Source: Flavobacteriaceae bacterium
Lineage (GTDB): Bacteria; Bacteroidota; Bacteroidia; Flavobacteriales; Flavobacteriaceae
DNA length: 51,512 nt
Assembly: GCA_029243385.1 (NCBI GenBank)
Contig: JAQWSC010000003.1
Span: 1-51,512, forward strand
Direction: 5' to 3'
Shown: positions 1,130-44,163 of the stretch, piece after piece
How the letters are laid out: each line of letters starts with the position of its first letter
How positions within the stretch are numbered: position 1 is the first letter of the stretch
The notes under the pieces: generated by a model
The model's input: only the letters and a program-made list of their open reading frames with translations
Database searches by the model: none
Told to the model about the DNA's origin: nothing
Translations under genes and position numbers: made by a program

Positions 1130-1228
1130 TCTAATTAATTAAAAAATTTTCCTGCTTAGTTTCTTTTTTTTTGCCAAATCTTTTTTGATGAGGAAAGTCG
1201 TATACCTATACATTCAAAAATCTATTAG

Positions 1229-1236
1229 TATATTTG
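1229..1236 (+). promoter_or_regulatory. Putative -7 promoter box (TATATTTG) of the regulator gene
   Basis: TATATTTG fits the Bacteroidota -7 consensus TAnnTTTG. It lies 35 bases before the ATG at 1272, almost the same distance as the identical box before susC. No good -33 TTG is visible. It supports 1272 as the start and argues against the upstream TTG and ATG codons at 1185-1190. Confidence 0.45.
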
Positions 1237-1271
1237 TTTGCGTTTTAGGGTATCATTTTAATCGACGTTTA

Positions 1272-4070
1272 ATGAAGCATTGGCAATTCTATTTAGTTAG
1301 CTTATTGTGGGGGATATTTGCTTTCTCTCAGGAACTACCACCTATACAAAAATTTTCACCTCAACTATACGAAGCTGGAAATCAAAATTGGATGATTGCT
1401 CAGGCTCCAGATGCGTCAATTTATATTGCTAACAACAACGGGTTATTAAAGTATAACGGTTCACGATGGCAGCTTTATCCTAGCCCAAACAATACAATTG
1501 TTAGAGCCGTTAAGGCTATAGACGATAAAATATACACAGGGTCATTTATGGATTTTGGTTGTTGGAATCAAAATTCAGAGGGGCAATTAATCTATACATC
1601 ATTAGCGGAGTCTCTAAACATCGATTTGATAGAAGACGAGCAGTTTTGGAATATTTTGGAGTACGATAATTGGTTGCTTTTCCAATCTCTTAATCGACTT
1701 ATTTTTGTAAATCCAACGACCAAAGAGGTAAAGTTTATAAAAGCAACCTCAACATATTCTAAATCGTTTAAGCGAAATGGCAACATTTATTTCCATGAGC
1801 AACAGCGCGGCCTTTATATGCTTAAATCAGGGAAACCATCTTTGGTTTCTTCTCACCCGATTTTTAGAAATCATATTATTGTTAATATTTTTAATGTTGG
1901 ACAAAAATTTTTAATTGTAACAGACAATGCGGGGTTGTATTTTTTAGAAAAGGGCAAACTCACAAGATGGAAAACAGATGCCGACTCGCTTTTTCAACAA
2001 ACCTCTATTTACAGTGCGATTCAACTTCTAGATCAAAATTTATTAATAGGAACGATATCCAAAGGGCTTCTAAAATTAAACCCCCAAGGAGAAATAGATC
2101 TTGAGCTAAATCAATCCAAAGGGATTTCAAACAACACAGTGCTTTCTGTTTTTGAAGATAAGACTCAAAATGTATGGTTAGGCCTTGATAATGGAATAAA
2201 CTGCTTGAATCTTACATCTCCATTTTCTATTTATAATGAGACCAATGGATCGATTGGATCGGTTTATACTTCGATTACTCACAACGGAAATCTTTACTTA
2301 GGAACCAATCAAGGGTTGTTTTCTAAACGTATCTCATCCAAAGCTCCTTTTAGTTTAGTGCCGGGAACTGCGGGTCAAGTTTGGAATCTGACGAAGCTCA
2401 ATGGGGATTTGTTGTGCGGTCATGATTTAGGAACATTTAAAATAGAGGGAAATAAAGCCATTCGTTTTTCAACGACACAAGGCGCTTGGGATTTTAAACC
2501 CTTGAATAAAAACAAGACCCTTGCTTTGCAAGGAAATTATAGTGGGTTGTATGTGATTCAAAAAAAGGGAAGGGATTGGTCTGTTCGAAACAAAATAGAA
2601 GGCTTTAATATTTCGTCCAAATTTTTTGAATTGGTTAATGACACTACCTTACTTATCAGTCACGAATACAAAGGTGTTTATAAAGTTGTCTTGGATTCGG
2701 ACTACACAAAAGCCATTGAAATTGTCGAAGAACAATCTGTTAAAAAGTCAAGTCATAGTTGTTTGATTTCTTTTGAAGGGTACATTATTTACAAATCAAA
2801 CGATGGAGTATTTTTATATAACAAAGACAAACAGACCTTTGATAAGGACGCCTTAATCAATAATTTTTTCCCAAAGGAAGAATACACATCCGGGAAAATG
2901 ATTAATGATCGCGCAGGCAAGCTCTGGATGTTTTCAAAAAATTATTTTCATTATTTGACATCCGACATTTTATCTTCTACACTAAAAGTAAAGTCACTGC
3001 CTTTTCCTTATAGATTGAGTAGAGGGATGGAAGGATACGAACACGTTCTCTCGCTTTCTAACAATAAATTTTTATATGGGACAATGGATGGATATGTCAC
3101 GTTTGATTTAAAAGCGTACTTGAGCAAGTCACCTCCAGTGAACTTAGACAAAATTTCTTTACAATCATTAGATGGTAAAGAAACGTTACTTCCTTTGAAT
3201 ACTTCAATTGATTTGGAACCCAATCAAAACAATATCAGTTTTTATTATAATGTCCCTTATTATCAAAAAGCGCATCAAGTGAAATTTCAGTACAAACTCA
3301 TCGGTTATTACGACCAATGGAGTTCTTGGTCAGAAAATTCATTCACCACTTTTACCAACTTACCCTTTGGAGATTATACGTTAAGTGTACGTGCCAAAAT
3401 TGGAGATGTTACTACAGAAACAAAAGATTTCATGCAAGTTAGTATCGAAAAGGCATGGTACCTTTCCAATTTGATGGTAATAATTTATGTGTTGTTTTTT
3501 ATTTTTATTTCGCTATCCATCAACCAATCCTATACCAGATACTACAGAAAACAACAGCAAAAGCTTATTGAAAAAAACAATCGTATCCTTGAGATCAAAG
3601 AATTGGAAAACAATCAGGAGCTTATGAAGTTTAAAAACGAACAACTTCAGAAAGATATTGAGAACAAAAACCGAGAGTTGGCGATTTCTACGATGAGTAC
3701 AATTCGTCGAAACAAGTTTTTAGGAAGTATTAAAGACTCTTTAAAAGACGAGGAGAACTCTCCTAAAGTTCGAGCCGTAATTCGAACCATTGATCGTAAT
3801 CTTAATAATGATGACGATTGGAAATTTTTTGAGGAAGCCTTTAACAATGCCGATAAGGATTTTCTTAAAAAAGTAAAGCAAATCCATCCTTCTTTGACCC
3901 ACAACGATTTGCGTTTATGCGCGTATTTAAGGCTAAATTTATCTTCTAAAGAGATTGCTCCATTGCTTAATATTTCATCACGAAGTGTAGAAATAAAAAG
4001 ATATCGTCTTAGAAAAAAGATGGAATTAGAGCATAAACAAAGTTTGGTTGACTACATCATGACCTTATAA
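1272..4070 (+). CDS. Membrane-anchored beta-propeller / Y_Y_Y / LuxR-type HTH regulator of the glucan locus
   Basis: The predicted 932-residue protein starts with a signal-like segment (MKHWQFYLVSLLWGIFAFS). A long periplasmic part resembles the two-component-regulator propeller repeats (for example SVFEDKTQNVWLGLDNGI), then comes a Y_Y_Y domain around residues 650-715 (FQYKLIGYYDQWSSW). One membrane helix follows at about residues 731-752, then a charged coiled coil rich in K, E and Q, and a C-terminal helix-turn-helix of LuxR type (NLSSKEIAPLLNISSRSVEI). There is no histidine kinase domain, so this is a one-component membrane-spanning sensor. It probably senses a sugar oligomer in the periplasm and activates the adjacent susC operon. 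The open frame extends upstream to 1185, but those start codons would place a non-signal leader before the signal peptide and lie upstream of the promoter box at 1229. Confidence 0.85.
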   Translation: MKHWQFYLVSLLWGIFAFSQELPPIQKFSPQLYEAGNQNWMIAQAPDASIYIANNNGLLKYNGSRWQLYPSPNNTIVRAVKAIDDKIYTGSFMDFGCWNQNSEGQLIYTSLAESLNIDLIEDEQFWNILEYDNWLLFQSLNRLIFVNPTTKEVKFIKATSTYSKSFKRNGNIYFHEQQRGLYMLKSGKPSLVSSHPIFRNHIIVNIFNVGQKFLIVTDNAGLYFLEKGKLTRWKTDADSLFQQTSIYSAIQLLDQNLLIGTISKGLLKLNPQGEIDLELNQSKGISNNTVLSVFEDKTQNVWLGLDNGINCLNLTSPFSIYNETNGSIGSVYTSITHNGNLYLGTNQGLFSKRISSKAPFSLVPGTAGQVWNLTKLNGDLLCGHDLGTFKIEGNKAIRFSTTQGAWDFKPLNKNKTLALQGNYSGLYVIQKKGRDWSVRNKIEGFNISSKFFELVNDTTLLISHEYKGVYKVVLDSDYTKAIEIVEEQSVKKSSHSCLISFEGYIIYKSNDGVFLYNKDKQTFDKDALINNFFPKEEYTSGKMINDRAGKLWMFSKNYFHYLTSDILSSTLKVKSLPFPYRLSRGMEGYEHVLSLSNNKFLYGTMDGYVTFDLKAYLSKSPPVNLDKISLQSLDGKETLLPLNTSIDLEPNQNNISFYYNVPYYQKAHQVKFQYKLIGYYDQWSSWSENSFTTFTNLPFGDYTLSVRAKIGDVTTETKDFMQVSIEKAWYLSNLMVIIYVLFFIFISLSINQSYTRYYRKQQQKLIEKNNRILEIKELENNQELMKFKNEQLQKDIENKNRELAISTMSTIRRNKFLGSIKDSLKDEENSPKVRAVIRTIDRNLNNDDDWKFFEEAFNNADKDFLKKVKQIHPSLTHNDLRLCAYLRLNLSSKEIAPLLNISSRSVEIKRYRLRKKMELEHKQSLVDYIMTL

Positions 4071-4125
4071 AAAAGGCTACAACACTTCAATTTCACTTAA
4101 CATTAACTATACAAAGTTTACACGG

Positions 4126-4152: not shown

Positions 4153-4200
4153 TGTAAAATTACCGATTTCACAGAAAAATCATTGTAGAATTACCGAATT
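4153..4200. promoter_or_regulatory. Two 17-bp direct repeats 31 bp apart, candidate operator for the SusC operon
   Basis: TGTAAAATTACCGATTT at 4153-4169 and TGTAGAATTACCGAATT at 4184-4200 match at 15 of 17 positions. Their start-to-start distance of 31 bp is about three helical turns, so both copies face the same side of the DNA. They lie about 80-125 bp upstream of the -7 box of susC, a normal place for an activator. I infer that the adjacent LuxR-HTH regulator binds here. Confidence 0.45.
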
Positions 4201-4277
4201 GCCATTTTTTAAGCACAAAAATTTCATTGTATATATTTTGTTGAGTTATTTAAATTTTAACAATTAATGTAGATTTC

Positions 4278-4285
4278 TATATTTG
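4278..4285 (+). promoter_or_regulatory. Putative -7 promoter box (TATATTTG) of the susC operon
   Basis: TATATTTG matches TAnnTTTG and sits 34 bases before the susC ATG at 4320. The -33 position carries only TTTA, a weak match that fits an activator-dependent promoter. Confidence 0.5.
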
Positions 4286-4319: not shown

Positions 4320-7300
4320 ATGAATAAAATTTTCATTTTAATAATAGCTTTTAGCTTTTACAGCTTCGCTCAATCGGATCAAGTAAGCGGAACTGTTTTA
4401 GATTCTGAAACGAAAGACCCTCTTCCAGGTGCCACTGTATTAGTTAAAGGAACCACCATCGGTACTACAACCGATTTTGACGGTAATTTTTCCCTACCCG
4501 ATATTTCTGTAAATACTACCTTGGTTGTATCCTATCTCGGATATACCGATACAGAAATCAAAATAACTGCTTCAGCTACCTATCAAATTCTATTGAATGC
4601 TTCTGCTAACGAGCTTCAAGAAATTGTTGTTGTTGGTTACGGTACACAAACCAAAAAGGAAGTAACGGGAGCTGTCACTGTTCTTGGAGCTGAAAATATT
4701 GAAAAATTAAACCCTACACGAATTGAACAAGCACTACAGGGACAAGTTTCTGGGGTGAACATCACTTCTGGTTCGGGTGCACCAGGTAGCGGACTAAACA
4801 TTCAGATCCGTGGAGTATCAACTAACGGAGACAACAGACCTTTAATTTTACTTGACGGGAATGTTATAGAAGATTTGTCTGTACTCAACCCTAAGGATAT
4901 TGAAAGCATCAATGTCATTAAAGATGCTACTGCTGGTATTTATGGTGTTCGTGGTGCAAACGGTGTAATTCTTATTACCACTAAAACAGGACGTAAAAAC
5001 ACAAAACTTTCCATCGAACTGGACTCTTACTTTGGTATCCAACTTACCAGTAAAAAAATTGATTTGATGCAATCTGCACAATATACAAATTACAGTAATG
5101 ATTTGGCTTCGTTTAACATATACAAAAACACGCCAACTTACAGCATTGATTGGCAAAATAAAGTATTTGAAATGGCTCCAATGACTAGTACCAATTTGTC
5201 GGTGTCAGGAGGAACTGAAAAATCAACTTATACAGCAGGAGTCTCATACCTCTATCAAGATGGAATCGTAGGACTTAATAAATCAAACTTCAACAGACTC
5301 ACCTCGCGAATCAAATATCAATACGATGTGTTAGATAATTTAAAAATCAACACTTCGGTTATTTATATGCATTCAGAAAAAAACAATTTGCCTGAAGGCG
5401 GAATAGGCTCTGTACTGTATAGTGCTGTTAACATGAGTCCTTTAATTACTGTTTACAATGGGAACGATTACAATGAGCTAAACAACCCAAGATCGTATTC
5501 ATTAATTAAAGCGATTAATGCTGTCGAAATAATCAATCCAGTTGCACAAATTTACAACGCTAATAACACAAGCTTGGTTGATAAGTTTACGGCTTCATTG
5601 GGAGTTGATTATTCTCCATGGTCAAATGTTAAAATAAGTTCTGTTTTTCAAATGAATCATGCCAATGTATTAAACGACGTGTACAGACCTGTCGCTTATT
5701 ACGGATCCAGTAAATCAGCAAACAGAACTAAAGTTGAAGTAGTTGACCACGGATCAACTTTCGATGATTACACATGGGACAACTTCTTGACTTATGAAAA
5801 TACGTTCAATGACTTACTTAATATGAAAATATTGTTAGGAACCTCAATTTTCAAAACCAAAGGAATTTTCTACGGATATAGTTTCGAAGATGGTGATGAA
5901 GCTGTTACTCCTCGTTTCAATGCAGACGACAAGTTCAAAGGCGCTGATGTGTTTGACTCTCGATTGGCCTCAGTGTTCTATCGTATTCAATTAAACTATG
6001 ACAACAGATACCTATTGTCGGGAGTTGTTCGAAGAGACGGATCTTCTAAATTTTCTCCAAAAAATAAGTTTGGAATATTTCCTTCCGCATCTTTAGGTTG
6101 GAATATTTCTGAAGAAAACTTTTTTTCAAGTACAACAATCAACAACCTAAAACTTCGACTTAGTTACGGAATCATTGGGAATGACCGTATAGGTGACTTT
6201 GGATTTATATCTAGATTGAATGGAGAAGCGGTTTATTCTAACAATCTTGAAGAAACTGAAGATGATCTTTTAAGAGGTGTTGCTGTAGGAAAGCTTTCGA
6301 ATCCCGAAATTCGCTGGGAAAAGCAAAAAACAGGAAATTTTGGTGTTGATATGTCATTGTTTGACAGTAGCCTACGAATTTCGTTAGATGCTTACCAACG
6401 CGAAACAGAAGACCTTCTTATTGATGCACAAGTATCAGGAATTTTAGGAGCTTCGGCCCCTGGATCAGGCTCCCCTTTTATTAATGCAGGTACGGTTCGA
6501 AATCAAGGGCTTGAGGCCTCAATAGCATACAATACAAATTTTACAGACGATCTTAGTTTCAATATCAGCTACAACATTAGTACAATTGATAATGAGGTTC
6601 TATTTGTAGAAAGCGAAAACGGCTTCCAGCAAGGTGGTGGCTGGGGTGTAGGTCTTGGAATTATTCCTTCACGAATGGAAGCAGGATACCCCTTGGGATA
6701 TTTTTATGGATACAAAACGAATGGCTTATACCAAAATCAGGCTGAAATTGATGCACTTGACTCAAATGCTTTTGATGCAGATGGTGAAGACATTTACTTC
6801 CATGAAGGAGCTGAAGTTGGGGATCTAAAATTTGTTGATGTTAACGGAGACGGATACATTTCTGATGATGATAAAACCTACATTGGTGATCCTATACCAG
6901 ATTTTACTATGGGTTTTTCTATGGGATTCCAATTTAAAGATTTTGATTTCAGTGCTTCAGCATATGCTTCTATCGGAAACGACATGGTGCGAGATTATGA
7001 GCGTCAAGCAATGAATACTAACCGAGGAACTTATATGCTCAACCGATGGACTCCAGAAACAGGAGGAAACACCATTCCAAGAGCATCTGGAGGAAGTTCT
7101 ATTAACAACAATAATTTTTCAGATTATTTTGTTGAAGACGCCTCTTACTTAAGAATTCAAAACGTACAGTTAGGTTATACTGCAAATGATAAAATCAACA
7201 AATTTTTAAGACTTGATTCACTGCGGATGTACGTGTCTGCAAACAACTTGTTCACGTTCACTAATTACAATGGATTCGACCCTTCAGCAAGTGGAGGAAG

Positions 7301-7379
7301 TCCTATAGGGGCTGGGATTGATAAAGGATTTTATCCTGTATCTCGCACATTCATGTTTGGGTTAAATGTTAAACTATAA
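4320..7379 (+). CDS. susC: SusC/RagA-family TonB-linked outer-membrane transporter
   Basis: The 1019-residue protein has a signal peptide (about residues 1-17), a carboxypeptidase-regulatory-like domain at about residues 22-105 (SGTVLDSETKDPLPGATVLV), the SusC-family plug entry VVVGYGTQTKKEVTGAV, the plug motif around GVSTNGDNRPLILLDG, and a long beta-barrel ending in an aromatic-rich strand (FMFGLNVKL). Length and order are normal for the family. It imports glycan oligomers across the outer membrane using energy from TonB-ExbB-ExbD, with SusD as its lid. SusD starts five bases after its stop, so they are one operon. The adjacent GH16 suggests beta-1,3-glucan oligomers, which is inference. 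An extracellular stretch around residue 840 (DVNGDGYISDDD) looks like a calcium-binding loop. Confidence 0.95.
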   Translation: MNKIFILIIAFSFYSFAQSDQVSGTVLDSETKDPLPGATVLVKGTTIGTTTDFDGNFSLPDISVNTTLVVSYLGYTDTEIKITASATYQILLNASANELQEIVVVGYGTQTKKEVTGAVTVLGAENIEKLNPTRIEQALQGQVSGVNITSGSGAPGSGLNIQIRGVSTNGDNRPLILLDGNVIEDLSVLNPKDIESINVIKDATAGIYGVRGANGVILITTKTGRKNTKLSIELDSYFGIQLTSKKIDLMQSAQYTNYSNDLASFNIYKNTPTYSIDWQNKVFEMAPMTSTNLSVSGGTEKSTYTAGVSYLYQDGIVGLNKSNFNRLTSRIKYQYDVLDNLKINTSVIYMHSEKNNLPEGGIGSVLYSAVNMSPLITVYNGNDYNELNNPRSYSLIKAINAVEIINPVAQIYNANNTSLVDKFTASLGVDYSPWSNVKISSVFQMNHANVLNDVYRPVAYYGSSKSANRTKVEVVDHGSTFDDYTWDNFLTYENTFNDLLNMKILLGTSIFKTKGIFYGYSFEDGDEAVTPRFNADDKFKGADVFDSRLASVFYRIQLNYDNRYLLSGVVRRDGSSKFSPKNKFGIFPSASLGWNISEENFFSSTTINNLKLRLSYGIIGNDRIGDFGFISRLNGEAVYSNNLEETEDDLLRGVAVGKLSNPEIRWEKQKTGNFGVDMSLFDSSLRISLDAYQRETEDLLIDAQVSGILGASAPGSGSPFINAGTVRNQGLEASIAYNTNFTDDLSFNISYNISTIDNEVLFVESENGFQQGGGWGVGLGIIPSRMEAGYPLGYFYGYKTNGLYQNQAEIDALDSNAFDADGEDIYFHEGAEVGDLKFVDVNGDGYISDDDKTYIGDPIPDFTMGFSMGFQFKDFDFSASAYASIGNDMVRDYERQAMNTNRGTYMLNRWTPETGGNTIPRASGGSSINNNNFSDYFVEDASYLRIQNVQLGYTANDKINKFLRLDSLRMYVSANNLFTFTNYNGFDPSASGGSPIGAGIDKGFYPVSRTFMFGLNVKL

Positions 7380-7384
7380 TTTAA

Positions 7385-8965
7385 ATGAAAAAATCAATTA
7401 TATCAGGAATTATTACACTTTTCATCTTCACTGTAGGATGTAAGGATTTTATTGAAGTTGAACCCTTAGGGCCTGTTGCCGACACATTTTTTAGTCAAGC
7501 AGAAGACTTTGAGGATGCTCTGATAGGCGCGTATGATATTTTACAATCCACTTTTTGGAACGTACAACTTGCAACGATTGCCTCTCCAGATATTAACGCT
7601 GGAGGAGATGCTGCCAACTACGACCAACCAACACTGCAAGACGTTGACAAGATGATTCATACCGAATCTACCTATGTGCAAATCAGAGACGTTTGGCAGA
7701 ATATGTATGCTGGAATCAATCGCACAAACTTTTTATTAGAAGCAAAAAACAACTTGGACTTTGAAGGAAAAGACAACATACTTGGACAAACTTATTTCTT
7801 AAGAGCCTATTATACTTTTGAATTGGCAAAGTTTTTTGGGGATATTCCTCTTTTTGTTGATACAGAAGTTGAACCGAATCGAATCCAAGACAAACAGGTT
7901 TTGTTTGGGGATCAATTTCTTGTAAACCGCGTAGGAAGCGTTGCAAAGGTGTTTGACTTAATTGAAGAAGATCTCAAAGAATCTATTTCACTGTTGCCCG
8001 ATTCTCAACCAGACAATTGGAGAGTTTCTAAAATGGCAGCCCATGCTTTGTTAGGTAAAGTAATGTTGTTTAATGAAAAATACGCAGAGGCTGCTGCTCA
8101 GCTTCAAACAGTTATTGACTCAAATGACTATAGATTGCTCAATCATGGATCGGAATTTAACAACATATGGGAAGCCTCTTCTGAAAACGGAGATGAATCT
8201 ATTTTTGAAATTCAATACACTAGTGTTGAGGGTGCAGGATGGGACTGTATCACTTGTAGCGAAGGAACTTATATGCCTAAATTCAACAATCCTAGAGATC
8301 CATTTTCGAACACCAAATATATAGCTGGCTGGGGATTCAACCTTCCTATACCACCTCTATACGAAGCCTTCAAAACGGGAGATGCTAGAAGAGACCTAAC
8401 TATTTTTGATTTAAGAACTGATTCTAGCCGATCTAAGGGCCGAGAGGATCTAGGATTTTTTACCAAAAAATACATTGTTCATAAAGATAACGACTTGGAT
8501 CGAACCGGTCCAGACCCATTAAACTTTGACAACAATTATCGTTCAATTCGATATGCTGATGTTTTGTTGATGGCCGCTGAAGCTTATGAAAAATCCGGAA
8601 ACACATCCAAAGCAGAATCATTTTTAAATGATGTGAGATTTCGTGCTTTTGGTAATAATAGCCAGAATTATACCGCTGCTGAAGGAACATTAAGAGACAT
8701 GATTTTTCAAGAGCGAAGATTGGAGCTTTCTGCAGAAGGACATTACTTCTTTGACTTAGTTCGAACAGGTAGAGCAAAAGATGCATTTGATGCATATAAT
8801 GCTTGGATTGTTTCAGCCAATCCAAAATGGACTGTTGGAGGAAAAGAAATGGATTTTTTACCCATTAATTTTGAAACCAACAAAAATGAAATTTTCCCAA
8901 TCCCTCTAGTTGAATTGGAATTAGCCAATGCAACTGATCGATGGAAACAAAACCCAGGATACTAA
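7385..8965 (+). CDS. susD: SusD/RagB-family glycan-binding surface lipoprotein
   Basis: The 526-residue protein has a lipoprotein signal with the modified Cys at residue 19 (FTVGC). It shows the SusD/RagB helical scaffold (TPR-like stretches such as YFLRAYYTFELAKFFGDIPL), the RYADVLLMAAEAYEKSG segment, and the characteristic C-terminal end FPIPLVELELAN...RWKQNPGY. It should bind glycan at the cell surface and close over SusC. It is complete and follows susC by five bases. The binding specificity cannot be read from the sequence; laminarin-like glucan is inferred from the neighbours. Confidence 0.94.
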   Translation: MKKSIISGIITLFIFTVGCKDFIEVEPLGPVADTFFSQAEDFEDALIGAYDILQSTFWNVQLATIASPDINAGGDAANYDQPTLQDVDKMIHTESTYVQIRDVWQNMYAGINRTNFLLEAKNNLDFEGKDNILGQTYFLRAYYTFELAKFFGDIPLFVDTEVEPNRIQDKQVLFGDQFLVNRVGSVAKVFDLIEEDLKESISLLPDSQPDNWRVSKMAAHALLGKVMLFNEKYAEAAAQLQTVIDSNDYRLLNHGSEFNNIWEASSENGDESIFEIQYTSVEGAGWDCITCSEGTYMPKFNNPRDPFSNTKYIAGWGFNLPIPPLYEAFKTGDARRDLTIFDLRTDSSRSKGREDLGFFTKKYIVHKDNDLDRTGPDPLNFDNNYRSIRYADVLLMAAEAYEKSGNTSKAESFLNDVRFRAFGNNSQNYTAAEGTLRDMIFQERRLELSAEGHYFFDLVRTGRAKDAFDAYNAWIVSANPKWTVGGKEMDFLPINFETNKNEIFPIPLVELELANATDRWKQNPGY

Positions 8966-9030: not shown

Positions 9031-9657
9031 ATGAATTTACTTAAAAAAGGAATTTTTTTCCTACTAGCTGCAACTGTAATAGTTGCTTGTTCTGACGACG
9101 ATGATCCAGTAGTAACTCCACCAACAGGAGGAGATGGCGGTGGCGATGGTGACACAACCGTAGACATGAGCGATCATCCTTTAGCAGACTCTTCTTGGAG
9201 CCTTGCTGCAGAAGCTGGAGCTCTTAAGGTTGGACCCTCAAAAACGGATCTTTCTTGGTGGGCATTGCCTGCAGAAGGAGATGGTAATGTAACATTACGT
9301 ACTTGCCAGACTGACGATGTATTTACATTCAATGCTGACGGAACTTATTCTGTTGCTCTTGGTGATGACACTTGGCTTGAGACTTGGCAAGGAACTGATG
9401 TCGCGGAAGGATGTGGTGCTGCAGTAGCTCCTCATGCTAGCGGAGACCACACTTGGTCTGGTGACGGTACTACATTTACTCTTGTTGGAGAAGGTGTTTT
9501 TATCGCGCTCTCTAAAGCAAACAACCAAAACCAAACAGGTACTCCTGATGCAAACTCTATTCAGTATGAGTTTGCTCTTGATGGTGAAACACTTGAGGTG
9601 TACCTAACAGGCTTCCAAGATGGTGCTTACTGGTATTACAAGTTGTCTAAACAATAG
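9031..9657 (+). CDS. Small surface lipoprotein of a glucan locus, probable glycan-binding accessory protein
   Basis: The 208-residue product has a lipobox with Cys20 (VIVAC) followed by SDDDD, the kind of acidic run that exports lipoproteins to the cell surface in Bacteroidota. A Gly/Asp/Thr linker follows. The folded part (about residues 50-208) carries the aromatic-rich motifs DLSWWALP, LETWQGTDVAEGCG and HTWSGDGTTFTLVG. From memory this domain recurs beside flavobacterial laminarinase genes, but I cannot name a characterised member. It occupies the usual SusE/SusF slot after SusD, so a glucan-binding role is likely but inferred. A strong terminator follows, so it appears to end the susC-susD transcript. 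Many codons are G/C-richer than in its neighbours, probably reflecting high expression. Confidence 0.7.
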   Translation: MNLLKKGIFFLLAATVIVACSDDDDPVVTPPTGGDGGGDGDTTVDMSDHPLADSSWSLAAEAGALKVGPSKTDLSWWALPAEGDGNVTLRTCQTDDVFTFNADGTYSVALGDDTWLETWQGTDVAEGCGAAVAPHASGDHTWSGDGTTFTLVGEGVFIALSKANNQNQTGTPDANSIQYEFALDGETLEVYLTGFQDGAYWYYKLSKQ

Positions 9658-9686
9658 TATTTAATTGACTATAGTTTAGCCTATTT

Positions 9687-9720
9687 AAACATACGGTCTT
9701 TCTAGACCGTATGTTTTTTT
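9687..9720 (+). terminator. Strong intrinsic terminator between the lipoprotein and the laminarinase
   Basis: The arms at 9687-9699 and 9704-9716 are perfectly complementary over 13 bp with a TTCT loop, followed by a run of seven Ts. Only 24 bases separate it from the next start codon. Confidence 0.88.
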
Positions 9721-9744
9721 AATTTTAATTTTAATTCAACAACT

Positions 9745-10575
9745 TTGAATCACAATCCTTTTTTCTTTATCCTTATTTGTTCCTTTTTTTTATTTTCTTG
9801 TGGAGGGGATAAAAGTGCTGAAAGTATAGTTGTTATTCCAGATCAAAACAACAACCCTGGATCAGGAGATAACGATGAATTGGTATGGTCTGAAGAGTTT
9901 GATTATGAAGGGTCACCTGATAGCAGTATTTGGACTATCGAACAAGGCGATGGGTGTCCTGATTTATGTGGTTGGGGGAACTTTGAAAAACAGTATTATA
10001 GAAAACAAAATATTGAAGTTTCTGAAGGAACTCTAAAAATCAACATAAAAAAAGAATCTTATGGAGGTAAATCTTTTACTTCTGGAAGAATGAAATCTCA
10101 AGGAAAATACAGTCTTACCTATGGTAAAGTTGATATCAAAGCCAAATTACCAAAAAATACAGGCACATGGCCTGCCCTTTGGTTGTTAGGAGAAAGTGTT
10201 TCTTTTTATTCCTGGCCGACCTGTGGAGAGATCGATATCATGGAACAACGTGGCGATAACAAATCCGTTGTGTTAGGAACTTTGCATTGGGGCGAGAATT
10301 GGGAAAACCGAAAGGAGTACAGTGAAGATTCTCCATCTGTTGATGGATTAACAGATGATTGGCATATTTATTCTGTTAATTGGACAGACACCTCAATAAA
10401 AATATATATAGATGATATTCTGTATTATACGATGAATATTGACCAATCGCACCCTTTCAACGATCCATTCTTTTTTGTATTGAATGTAGCAGTGGGCGGA
10501 ACACTAGGAGGCGATATACCTTCAGATTTTCCTAACGATGTAATGGAAATTGACTACATCCGAGTCTATCAATAA
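9745..10575 (+). CDS. GH16 endo-beta-1,3-glucanase (laminarinase-type) lipoprotein
   Basis: The 276-residue protein starts at a TTG, the only start that keeps the lipoprotein signal (FFFILICSFFLFSCGG, Cys19). The single catalytic domain fills the rest. The GH16 signature is GEIDIMEQRG with nucleophile Glu162, Asp164 and acid/base Glu167; the extra Met in EIDIME is the beta-bulge form typical of laminarinases. TGTWPALWLLG and the C-terminal NVAVGGTLGG and MEIDYIRVYQ are also family motifs. It should cut beta-1,3-glucan at the cell surface and feed oligomers to SusC/SusD. It sits directly behind a strong terminator with almost no room for its own promoter, so expression may depend on read-through. 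Neither a CBM nor a type IX secretion tail is present. Confidence 0.93.
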   Translation: MNHNPFFFILICSFFLFSCGGDKSAESIVVIPDQNNNPGSGDNDELVWSEEFDYEGSPDSSIWTIEQGDGCPDLCGWGNFEKQYYRKQNIEVSEGTLKINIKKESYGGKSFTSGRMKSQGKYSLTYGKVDIKAKLPKNTGTWPALWLLGESVSFYSWPTCGEIDIMEQRGDNKSVVLGTLHWGENWENRKEYSEDSPSVDGLTDDWHIYSVNWTDTSIKIYIDDILYYTMNIDQSHPFNDPFFFVLNVAVGGTLGGDIPSDFPNDVMEIDYIRVYQ

Positions 10576-10596
10576 TTTTTCTTATTCTTATTTCTC

Positions 10597-10616
10597 ACTA
10601 CTTAGTAGTTTTTTTC
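10597..10616 (+). terminator. Weak hairpin plus T-run after the laminarinase
   Basis: ACTAC-TTA-GTAGT (10597-10609) is followed by seven Ts. The stem is only 5 bp, so termination may be partial; the MFS gene begins about 100 bases later. Confidence 0.4.
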
Positions 10617-10718
10617 AATTCAATTTTTAAACCCTTACTCACACTTCTGAATTGATACAATTCATTGTGGATAGTAGTCACAATATCTTTATCTTTATCA
10701 AAAACAAAAAGGATATTG

Positions 10719-12269
10719 ATGACTAAAAAAAGTATTTTCATTGCCTTTGTAGTCTCTCTAGGAGGCTTTTTATTTGGGTTTGATGCAGGGATTATTTCAG
10801 GAGTTGTTTCCTATGTAGGTCCAGAGTGGAACCTCACTGATGCTCAAATGGGTTGGGTCGTTAGTTCACCCTCCTTTGCCGCAATGATTGCCATGCTCAT
10901 TGCTGGAAAATTAAGCGATCATATAGGGCGAAAAAAAATACTGTTATATGTTGCCTTTGCTTATGCGCTTTCGGCGCTCCTATCGGCCGTAGCAACTTCT
11001 TACGAAATGCTTTACATAGCCCGAATGATTGGCGGTCTAGCTTTTGGATCGGCACTGGTTTTGGCACCAACCTATATTGCAGAAATAGCCAATGCTTCCA
11101 ATAGAGGAAAACTCGTTTCTATTCAACAGCTCAATATCGTATTTGGATTCTTTGCCGCTTTTTTAAGCAACTACTATTTAAATAGTATGAACTCGTCCAA
11201 CAATCCTTTTTTTACGGATGAAACAGTTTGGCGGTGGATGCTCGGAATTGAATTGGTCCCAGCGTTACTATATTTCTTTGCTCTTTTCTTCGTTCCACGA
11301 AGTCCGCGTTGGCTGTTTAGCAATCAGCACACTCATGAGGCCACTGCCGTTTTAACACAAATACACGGTTTTGAACAAGCGCAAATCGAGGCAGCTTCCA
11401 TTCAACAATCCATCAATCAAAACACGAATGCTACAAAAACATCTATTTTTGAGTTGTTGAAACCCGCGCTGCGATTCATACTCATTATAGGATTGGTATT
11501 GGGAGTCCTTCAACAAATCACAGGTATCAACGCCGTGTATTTTTATGCAACGTCTATTTTTAAACAAACCGGAATCGGAACAGACGCCGCTTTCTCATCC
11601 GGAGTACTTTTGAGTTTTACAACCGTCGTATTCACCTTTGTCGCTATTTTTCTGATTGATAGAATGGGTCGAAGACCTCTTTTGCTCATAGGAATGGCGG
11701 GAATTGCAACCAGTCTTTTGGTATGTGCTTATGGCTTTTATAAAGCCAAATACAAATTGACTTCACAAGAAATAGCGGCATTTCAAAATTTCCAACCAGA
11801 ACGATTGAAACCGCTTGAAAACAAAATATACACCAGTGACGTTGCCTTCAAAAATGAGGTAAAAGCAGTTTTAGGAAATCAAGTGTATGCCAAAAACGAG
11901 GGTGCTATTCTGGAAGCCGCAACCGAAATGAACGCCACCATTGTTCTGTTAGGAATACTTGGGTTTATTGCCTGTTTTGCGTTTTCTTTAGGACCAGTAA
12001 TGTGGGTAATGTTATCCGAACTTTATCCCAACGCATATCGGGGGCTTGCTATTGGCGTTATTGGATTTGTCAATTCGTTTACCAGTTGGGGAGTACAGCA
12101 ACTTTTTCCATGGGAATTATCGCAACTCGGAAGCGCTCTAACGTTCTTTATTTTTGGAGCAATTGCTTTTGTAGGCTTTTTTGTTTTATTAAAAATACTT
12201 CCCGAAACCAAAGGAAAAACATTGGAGCAAATTGAACAAGAGTTTGTGAAAATTGACCCAAAAAAATAA
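10719..12269 (+). CDS. Sugar-porter family MFS permease
   Basis: The 516-residue inner-membrane protein has twelve predicted helices and the sugar-porter signatures: GFLFGFDAGIISG at the start, DHIGRKKIL, PRSPRWLF, QQITGINAVYFYA, DRMGRRPLL, SELYPNAYRG and PETKGKTLEQIE. It resembles proton-coupled glucose/xylose porters and probably takes up the sugar released by the locus. I chose the ATG at 10719 (MTKKSIFIAF) because the open frame upstream from 10665 adds a non-membrane leader. A hydrophilic insertion of about 65 residues between the helices near residues 345-410 (KLTSQEIAAFQNF...) is longer than in the E. coli homologues. The glycosidase gene follows after 23 bases, so the two are probably co-transcribed. 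Confidence 0.92.
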   Translation: MTKKSIFIAFVVSLGGFLFGFDAGIISGVVSYVGPEWNLTDAQMGWVVSSPSFAAMIAMLIAGKLSDHIGRKKILLYVAFAYALSALLSAVATSYEMLYIARMIGGLAFGSALVLAPTYIAEIANASNRGKLVSIQQLNIVFGFFAAFLSNYYLNSMNSSNNPFFTDETVWRWMLGIELVPALLYFFALFFVPRSPRWLFSNQHTHEATAVLTQIHGFEQAQIEAASIQQSINQNTNATKTSIFELLKPALRFILIIGLVLGVLQQITGINAVYFYATSIFKQTGIGTDAAFSSGVLLSFTTVVFTFVAIFLIDRMGRRPLLLIGMAGIATSLLVCAYGFYKAKYKLTSQEIAAFQNFQPERLKPLENKIYTSDVAFKNEVKAVLGNQVYAKNEGAILEAATEMNATIVLLGILGFIACFAFSLGPVMWVMLSELYPNAYRGLAIGVIGFVNSFTSWGVQQLFPWELSQLGSALTFFIFGAIAFVGFFVLLKILPETKGKTLEQIEQEFVKIDPKK

Positions 12270-12292
12270 ACCCCTTTTACAATACCTTGAAT

Positions 12293-13528
12293 ATGCACAA
12301 TCAACCCTCCAAAGTAACTTTGACACAATCCAACGGCAATTACCAATTGAGAGTAAACGGAAAACCATTTTATATCAAAGGAGGAGGGCTTGAGTTTGGC
12401 GATATAGCGTCTTTGGCGACGCATCACGGAAACTCTTTTCGAACATGGCGCACTGACAACGGCCAACAATCTGCCCTCCAAGTACTTGATGAAGCCCACA
12501 AATACGGTCTTATGGTTACTATGGGAATCGAAGTAGCCCGCGAACGCCACGGGTTTGATTACAACGACACAGCAGCTGTTCAAGAACAAAAAAACCAAAT
12601 CCGAGAACAAGTCCTGGCGCTTAAAGATCATCCAGCCCTTTTGATTTGGAGCATTGGCAACGAACTGAATTTACATTATACCAACCCCAAAGTATGGGAT
12701 GCGGTCAACGAGATTTCTATAATGATTCATCAACTGGATCCCAATCATTTGACCACGACCCCCTTAGCAGGAATTACACAAGAAGAAATAACTCTTATAA
12801 AAAACCGCGCTTCCGATTTAGACCTATTATCTATTCAAGAATACGGTAAATTGATGACCCTTCCAGAGCGAATCAGAACCTATGGATGGGAAGGCGCGTA
12901 TATGGTTACCGAGTGGGGTGCCACTGGACACTGGGAAGTTCCTAAAACTTCGTGGGATGCTCCCATTGAAGAAAACAGTCATACCAAAGCACAGCATTAT
13001 TTGAAAAGATATCAAAATGCCATTGCAACTGATACGCAACAGTGTATCGGGTCGTATGTGTTTTTGTGGGGACAAAAGCAAGAGCGAACACCAACCTGGT
13101 ACGGATTGTTTTTGGAAGACGGAAAAGAAACCGAATCTGTTGACGTAATGCATTTTTTGTGGAGCAACGAGTGGCCTCAAACAAGATGCCCTCAAATCAA
13201 TGATCTTACAATCAACGGTAAAAAAGCAATTGAAAATGTTGTTTTGTCTGCCGATTCGTTGTGTAAAGCTACTTTTCAGATTACCTCTTTACACCCCAAA
13301 CACGCGTTGCATTACCGTTGGGAAATCCTTTTTGAAAGCACCGATTTAAAAGAGGGCGGTGATCCCGAAATACGCCCCAATTCTGTCCCTTTTCAAATCG
13401 TTTTGCAACAGCCGGAAGAATTGCTTTTTAAAACTCCAAAACTGACCGGAAAGTATCGATTATTCTTTTATTTGGACGATGGAATTTCAAAAGCAGCAAC
13501 GGCCAATTTCCCTTTTCAAGTAAAATAA
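12293..13528 (+). CDS. Clan GH-A glycoside hydrolase (GH2-type TIM barrel), no signal peptide
   Basis: The 411-residue protein has an (alpha/beta)8 barrel of clan GH-A. The likely acid/base is Glu124 in WSIGNELN and the nucleophile is Glu207 in MVTEWG. The start resembles the C-terminal barrel of GH2 enzymes (LRVNGKPFYIKGGG, SFRTWRTDNG). A beta-sandwich-like tail covers about residues 300-411. ATG 12293 is preferred to the TTG at 12287. No signal peptide or lipobox is visible, so it appears cytoplasmic, which matches its place behind a sugar permease. The family is uncertain: a barrel plus C-terminal Ig-like domain also fits endo-beta-1,3-glucanases of GH158, and GH2 or GH5-like assignment remains possible. 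A role in intracellular cleavage of imported beta-glucan oligomers is inferred. Confidence 0.78.
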   Translation: MHNQPSKVTLTQSNGNYQLRVNGKPFYIKGGGLEFGDIASLATHHGNSFRTWRTDNGQQSALQVLDEAHKYGLMVTMGIEVARERHGFDYNDTAAVQEQKNQIREQVLALKDHPALLIWSIGNELNLHYTNPKVWDAVNEISIMIHQLDPNHLTTTPLAGITQEEITLIKNRASDLDLLSIQEYGKLMTLPERIRTYGWEGAYMVTEWGATGHWEVPKTSWDAPIEENSHTKAQHYLKRYQNAIATDTQQCIGSYVFLWGQKQERTPTWYGLFLEDGKETESVDVMHFLWSNEWPQTRCPQINDLTINGKKAIENVVLSADSLCKATFQITSLHPKHALHYRWEILFESTDLKEGGDPEIRPNSVPFQIVLQQPEELLFKTPKLTGKYRLFFYLDDGISKAATANFPFQVK

Positions 13529-34323: not shown

Positions 34324-34405
34324 GCCTTGGTGGCGGAACTGGTAGACGCGCTGGATTCAAAATCCAGTTTCTTCGGAAGTGTGGGTTCGATTCCCACCCA
34401 AGGTA
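34324..34405 (+). tRNA. tRNA-Leu (anticodon CAA)
   Basis: The 82-base gene folds into a cloverleaf with a short variable arm. The acceptor is GCCTTGG paired with CCAAGGT, the anticodon stem CTGGA/TCCAG encloses TTCAAAA with anticodon CAA, and the T-arm is GTGGG-TTCGATT-CCCAC. CCA is not encoded. The anticodon reads UUG leucine codons. Confidence 0.95.
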
Positions 34406-44075: not shown

Positions 44076-44163
44076 AGAGAGGTGGCCGAGTGGTCGAAGG
44101 CGCACGCCTGGAAAGTGTGTATCCCGTTCCGCGGGATCGAGGGTTCGAATCCCTTCCTCTCTG
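44076..44163 (+). tRNA. tRNA-Ser (anticodon GGA)
   Basis: The 88-base gene has acceptor arms AGAGAGG/CCTCTCT, discriminator G, anticodon stem CACGC/GTGTG around CTGGAAA (anticodon GGA), a long variable arm (ATCCCG-TTCC-GCGGGAT) typical of serine tRNAs, and T-arm GAGGG-TTCGAAT-CCCTT. It reads UCC and UCU. CCA is not encoded. Confidence 0.95.

Follow-up and report, generated by a model that had tools for sequence, protein, structure and literature searches.

Laminarin is a major algal sugar store. In Escherichia coli, the AraC (araO2–araI) and LacI systems use spaced operators that rely on helical phase for their function. Among the Bacteroidota, Ravcheev et al. (2013, PMC3878776) predicted by comparative analysis the SusR-like sites of Bacteroides, described in the available part of that paper as direct-repeat boxes 67 or 77 bp apart; the direct-repeat sites of HTCS are given there as 21 bp apart on average. 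For marine Flavobacteriia, the available part of another study describes a laminarin polysaccharide utilization locus (PUL), variant B, with GH16, GH17 and GH30, and its account of this variant names no operator (PMC6298971). Many laminarin clusters are headed by a gene annotated LuxR, about which the available text notes nothing further (PMC13188888), and the accessible parts of the papers on a XylR-type regulator of Vibrio (PMC12125979) and on expression in Zobellia (PMC5613140) are without such a site. The open-licence PMC literature yielded no reported operator for a LuxR-type sensor of laminarin-type PULs and no paper treating DNA looping together with polysaccharide utilization loci.

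Here we analysed a 51,512-bp stretch of a Flavobacteriaceae genome (GCA_029243385.1, contig JAQWSC010000003.1, positions 1 to 51,512; hereafter the window). Two conserved sites, O1 and O2, lie between the gene of a LuxR-HTH sensor and susC, and we consider it likely that they form a phase-dependent, probably looped operator pair of this membrane-anchored regulator of a laminarin-type PUL. As far as the available part of the paper goes, the SusR-like operators are the nearest precedent. Both cases concern membrane-anchored sugar regulators of Bacteroidota, both operators were predicted comparatively, and in both the far-apart boxes stand on one face of the DNA at distances that differ by about one turn. 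Compared by layout and not by motif letters, they differ in that O1 and O2 are inverted, are each a tandem pair of half-sites and lie 113–175 bp apart, whereas the SusR-like boxes are direct, with centres 67 or 77 bp apart. The AraC and LacI systems share spaced operators and helical-phase dependence with O1/O2, but they are cytoplasmic, whereas here a membrane-spanning sensor is predicted, the half-sites are tandem and LuxR-type, and the loop is proposed.

Results

The regulator ORF (1185..4070, forward strand, 961 codons) matches Pfam Y_Y_Y (1.5e-10), GerE (1.9e-6) and Reg_prop (6e-5), the GerE match scoring 27.9 bits against the Pfam cut-off of 23.5; by eye, translation more likely begins at the ATG at 1272, which is residue 30 of this frame. 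The protein consists of a signal peptide (read by eye), two beta-propellers, Y_Y_Y, one membrane helix (read by eye from sequence and model), a coiled coil and a C-terminal LuxR/GerE HTH. In its AlphaFold2 model (mean pLDDT 76.7, pTM 0.59), a long helix spans residues 762–833, with low confidence from 798, and the HTH helices lie at 906–945. By sequence and by fold, the sensor part resembles the BT4663/BT3049/BT4673 sensors. Residues 746–959 match the NCBIfam BT3442 family at E 3e-9, with 36 bits, far below the cut-off of 940. The protein shares with HTCS the periplasmic sensor of two propellers and Y_Y_Y (PDB 3v9f, 4a2l, 3ott, 3va6) but carries a LuxR/GerE HTH, and a Pfam scan with E up to 0.001 found no histidine kinase, receiver or AraC HTH. 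Sequence and model predict a one-component membrane regulator of the LuxR/GerE-HTH type. Directly upstream, at 425-1129, lies the gene for a TMEM164-type membrane protein (TIGR02206).

Downstream, the forward strand carries a susC-like TonB-dependent transporter gene (4320..7379, TIGR04056 7.8e-241), the proposed target, followed by a susD-like lipoprotein gene (7385..8965, SusD_RagB 6.9e-29). According to Pfam and NCBIfam, the rest of the PUL (9031..13528, forward strand) encodes a 208-aa protein of no known type (9031-9657), a GH16 enzyme (9745-10575), a sugar porter (10665-12269) and a GH2-type TIM-barrel protein (12287-13528). Laminarin PULs are recognized by SusC/D together with either GH16 and GH3 or GH16, GH17 and GH30; the window has SusC/D, GH16, the GH2-type protein and the sugar porter.

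The sites O1 and O2 came from DNA behind the 90 best-scoring regulator matches (not all matches) among 397 genomes of the family. A SusC N-terminus is next in 58 of these 90 loci, at 217–252 bp from the stop codon in 52 of them. An EM motif search covered 56 of the 58 susC loci, two with gaps above 400 bp being left out, and one positional analysis of the susC gaps used 53 loci. Both sites had been spotted by eye beforehand; over the 56 intergenic regions, the search gave log-likelihoods of 837 for O2 and 727 for O1, against 77–83 in five shuffled sets. The O2 consensus aTGTATgTTTTTTGTtGnGGT lies about 83 bp before the susC ATG, and in most loci the O1 consensus TtACCTATACAtnACCACAACA follows the stop codon of the regulator gene by about 20–22 bases; a TAnnTTT box was also found. 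The half-site is ACCWMWACA with a nearly invariant final ACA, it stands in tandem 11 bp apart in both O1 and O2, and the two sites point at each other as an inverted pair.

In the window, O2 (4228..4247, reverse strand, EM motif 1, 22.5 bits) consists of AACTCAACA (4239-4247) and the weak half-site ATATATACA (4228-4236, 1.7 bits), 11 bp apart. It is identical at 20/20 positions in the sister, the one relative that was searched together with the own genome for the genus comparison, and it stands there within a 35-base identical run (4228-4262). No further O2 at 0–2 mismatches occurs in the own genome. O1 (4094..4113, forward strand, EM motif 2) consists of CACTTAACA (4094-4102) and AACTATACA (4105-4113), head-to-tail and 11 bp apart, and begins 23 bases behind the regulator stop codon; O2 is inverted relative to it at a start-to-start distance of 134 bp. 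The window's O1 has diverged to 8.8 bits, below the cut of 12 bits, and hence stands outside the 130 loci discussed below. It is 17/20 identical to the O1 of the sister, which scores 13.6 bits, and its placement rests on its position, the 134-bp distance, the second half-site (10.5 bits) and the sister. A possible third half-site, AAGGCTACA (4073..4081, forward strand), lies 21 bp upstream of O1; it is weak (5.3 bits) and 2/9 identical to the sister, and this position exceeds 3 bits in 52% of 126 loci. The half-sites of the window's genus depart from the ACC of the family at O1 and O2 (for example in AACTATACA and AACTCAACA), which gives the impression of a joint shift of site and protein; a comparison by eye of HTH residues with half-site changes gave nothing clear.

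A −7 promoter box, TATATTTG (4278..4285, forward strand), starts +50 from the O2 start and is kept at 7/8 positions in the sister. It has the form TAnnTTT, the −7 consensus of Bacteroidota promoters. In 116 of the 130 loci this motif lies at +50 relative to the start of O2, and in 122 at +49 to +51, against a mean of 1.2 and a maximum of 8 for offset triples in the control. By eye, no canonical −33 box was seen at the O2-linked promoter. The regulator–susC gap held no sigma-70 promoter or terminator above the level of shuffles and no Rfam element; elsewhere in the window, Rfam found two tRNA genes (34324-34405 and 44076-44163).

The first-pass annotation had placed a candidate operator of the LuxR-HTH sensor in this gap, at two 17-bp repeats. 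The repeats are real: TGTAAAATTACCGATTT (4153-4169) and TGTAGAATTACCGAATT (4184-4200), both on the forward strand, agree at 15/17 positions with 31 bp between their starts. Their place is as the annotation described, with the regulator gene (1185-4070) on one side and susC (4320) on the other, and upstream of the −7-like box (4278). Its remark that they share one DNA face is arithmetically fair, since 31 bp is about three helical turns. Among dinucleotide-shuffled versions of the 249-bp gap, 1/1000 contained a repeat of at least 15/17 at spacing 30–32, and 2/300 contained one at any spacing of 17–119. In the whole window, there are two such repeats at spacing 30–32 (none in each of ten Markov-1 windows) and six at spacing 18–120, five besides this one (0–3 per simulated window, n=10). 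Elsewhere in the own 1.69-Mb genome no sequence matches the repeat consensus perfectly; when up to 3 mismatches are allowed, the genome yields 65 matches against 40 for the reversed control, and the sole 1-mismatch match (L006) is within a 443-codon open frame.

What the annotation had overlooked is that the repeat copies occupy the spacer of a conserved site pair. Aligned with the sister, they are kept at 11/17 and 10/17 positions and the remaining spacer at 33/80, which puts the copies somewhat above plain spacer and far below O1 and O2. Conservation upstream of orthologous susC operons, which the annotation had made the touchstone of its proposal, was checked and did not appear. In none of the 170 downstream regions (counted with duplicates), the window aside, did the repeat consensus match at more than 14/17. 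This score came from 6 loci, two of them the same contig, against 1 in shuffles, and the window's own 17/17 is true by construction; matches of at least 13/17 occurred in 26 of the 170 regions against 19 in shuffles. The weak sister identity and these near-shuffle matches make the repeat, as far as the sequences indicate, a genus-level feature at best. Scored as degenerate half-sites, the copies reach −0.6 and 5.7 bits.

It is extremely unlikely that the 31-bp-spaced repeat is itself the operator of the regulator. It is real, locally improbable and in the right gap, its spacing is close to three helical turns, and its copies are kept at 21/34 positions in the sister against 33/80 for the remaining spacer; but it is degraded in the sister where O2 is identical, leaves no trace beyond the genus in the 170 regions, and falls in a spacer in which no additional half-site position is enriched across the 130 loci. 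As a conserved operator it was rejected on these grounds. It was also considered as what remains of a spacer duplication of 31 bp that preserved phase, which is not favoured: by eye, the similarity fades past 17 bp, and the window's O1–O2 distance of 134 lies no more than 1 bp from the 135 reconstructed for the root (midpoint root). We read the repeat as mostly lineage-specific spacer sequence. The annotation's proposal is partly supported: the regulator–susC gap does contain helically phased direct repeats that resemble an operator of the LuxR-HTH sensor, at O1 and O2 instead of 4153-4200.

For the spacing between O1 and O2, 80 titled contigs (the best 80 of 548, a few not titled Flavobacteriaceae) were added to give the 170 regions, of which 12 were dropped as duplicates by their first 150 bases, leaving 158 distinct loci. 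Both O1 and O2 reach at least 12 bits in 130 of the 158. Their distances are 113–116 (9 loci), 122–128 (56), 133–138 (50), 145–149 (11), 159 (2), 171 and 175 bp, most commonly about 125 or 136 bp, and 117–121, 129–132, 139–144 and 150–158 bp are absent. The distance thus changes in steps of about one helical turn, with a best period of about 11 bp; after similar spacers were collapsed to 96 loci, R was 0.742 at 11 bp, a value reached by 0/20,000 smoothed draws. This collapsing, a regulator tree and the sites away from the regulator (both below) were the three controls for common descent. Formosa algae (L138, 125 bp) and a strain of Flavobacterium johnsoniae (L184, 136 bp) are among the carriers of the pair.

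A tree of the regulators was limited to 79 loci because 60 stretches were short and without the regulator. Among its 17 branch changes of at least 4 bp, 13 are of 9–12 bp and one is of 20, and three are off the rule (4, 7 and 36 bp); the classes of the binomial on these jumps (9–12, 20–23 and 31–33 bp) were chosen after the spacing had been seen. No qualifying pair was found in 28 of the 158 loci, most of them with no pair at all and some with the regulator beside other genes. Pairs below the cut fit the rule in L002 (134 bp), L041 (135) and L139 (134) and are off it in L082 (117), L079 (130), L068 (131) and L161 (139). With these exceptions, O1 and O2 show the helical-phase spacing of a looping operator pair. 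What the phasing reveals is that each site depends on the face of the other; a loop as such goes beyond it.

A search by pattern alone with the exact O2 form TGTATRTTTTTTGTNGNGGT located 100 sites, spread over 89 of the 397 family genomes, with one match seen for the reversed control. At 95 of the 100, an inverted O1 of at least 14 bits lies no more than 280 bp upstream, compared with 1/100 for the wrong orientation and 0/100 for a shuffled O1. The distances in those 95 (112–116, 121–128, 133–139, 142, 146–151, 159–160 and 174 bp) are less clean than in the 130 loci, since they include 121, 139, 142, 146, 150–151 and 160 bp. Four of the other five have a weaker O1-like sequence at 128–149 bp and one, L281 (G069:C1:216576), has none: its best upstream O1 scores −5.1 bits and it precedes an ORF without a Pfam family. 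This site may have matched by chance or may mark a promoter with one site.

Judged by a C-terminal sequence signature, 79 of the 100 sites directly follow a regulator gene, and the other 21 are elsewhere. Many of the 79 overlap with the training loci of the O1 model, and the non-adjacent sites are the outside test. There, O1 is present at 20/21, at 112–137 bp and once at 142, in the same phase (R=0.60, p about 7e-4). A regulator match is found in all 89 genomes with an exact O2, against 251/397 overall (hypergeometric 1.5e-21); any match with E<=1e-60 counted as presence, so paralogs are included. A narrow pattern (TATACA-form O1, starts 112–142 bp apart), whose silence outside the family is weak evidence of absence, retrieved pairs in 2 of 395 genomes at the class level, both of the own family.

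The ORFs downstream of exact O2 sites (n=99) comprise 56 that match the window's susC, 3 that match its GH16, 3 that match its GH2-type protein and 37 that match no PUL gene of the window. Of 20 N-termini from ORFs without such a match, 10 begin by eye like the GH2-type protein; a Pfam scan of ten proteins found 2 GH2-type and 8 without a family above the cut-off. In O2-controlled GH2-type relatives (L221, L237) the N-terminus looks like a signal sequence; the window's GH2-type ORF has a TTG start and, by eye, no signal peptide. Two or three O1/O2 pairs occur in or near one PUL at L307 and L308 (relative G207), L209–L212, L220, L261, L262, L294 and L301, as if in several relatives each transcription unit had its own pair. 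A second O2 in the window's PUL was also considered; the best score inside the PUL is 8.7 bits, against 9.6 elsewhere in the window, and both were taken as chance.

In G207, O2 sites stand at three places, and the O1/O2 pairs are at 92120, 100076 and 117886 of G207:C5. Behind the first O2 come two ORFs taken as susC and susD by position, then genes for PKD, an unknown protein, GH2-type, Big_2, GH16, a sugar porter, further ORFs, GH17, GH30, a second transporter, GH17 and a secreted protein. This gene content behind the regulator-side O2 (PKD, GH2-type, GH16, two GH17 and GH30) resembles PUL variant B as described in the available part of PMC6298971, whereas the window's PUL is compact, with GH16, the GH2-type protein and the sugar porter. 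The genes of G207 and the GH16, GH17 and GH30 of variant B make laminarin, or else a similar beta-glucan, the probable substrate of the window's PUL.

Discussion

The sequences themselves show the two sites, the rule of their spacing, their link to the promoter and their joint occurrence with the regulator; from these we infer the binder, the loop, the activation and the inducer as follows. The sensor's own LuxR-type HTH would bind O1 and O2 in the gap between the sensor gene and susC. O2 would most likely be an activating, class II-like site beside the susC promoter, because it adjoins a promoter with TAnnTTT at a fixed distance and, by eye, without a canonical −33 box. O1 would engage the same regulator oligomer, most likely through a DNA loop, or otherwise through another bridged complex. 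A periplasmic beta-glucan oligosaccharide signal would pass through the single membrane helix and the coiled coil and switch the complex, so that susC and the remaining laminarin-type PUL would be turned on.

Phase dependence over such distances is a hallmark of looping in the AraC and LacI systems, and yet phasing by itself is no proof of it. The regulator could instead bind O1 and O2 without a loop, with RNA polymerase or a bend mediating cooperation between separate dimers on one face, or with O1 serving only for repression without inducer. O2 alone adjoins the promoter, and L281, an exact non-adjacent O2, is without O1; nevertheless, we regard binding without a loop as rather unlikely, as the inverted orientation over 113–175 bp and the pairing at 20/21 non-adjacent sites favour bridging over independent sites. 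A further doubt concerns the binder, since the half-sites are short and simple and binding by the regulator is predicted from sequence. Another factor, such as a global sugar regulator, might occupy O1 and O2 while the sensor acts elsewhere. This is very unlikely: a regulator match in 89/89 genomes with an exact O2 and 79/100 sites behind its gene would be unexpected for a global regulator, and the single O2 at 0–2 mismatches in the own genome also argues against one. Finally, the start of O1 about 22 bases past the stop codon in most loci might mean that O1 works in RNA or at the 3' end of the regulator mRNA instead of as a DNA site, an idea that is scarcely credible given that O1 stands upstream of 20/21 O2 sites with no regulator C-terminus there and that the window's gap contains no terminator-like hairpin and no Rfam match. 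We therefore retain the looped operator pair of the membrane-anchored sensor as the likely reading.

Two explicit sites and a phase rule make this proposal testable in the named relatives that carry the pair, and the O1/O2 pattern allows prediction of the regulon. The finding also leads one to ask how a protein bound to the membrane bridges DNA sites that lie so far apart. For the family as a whole our judgement, drawn from sequence comparison, is evenly balanced: across Flavobacteriaceae, the membrane-anchored one-component sensor may govern the promoters of laminarin-type PULs through a loop between two inverted tandem-site operators whose spacer would evolve almost only by whole helical turns, and the promoters would thereby be brought to the membrane.
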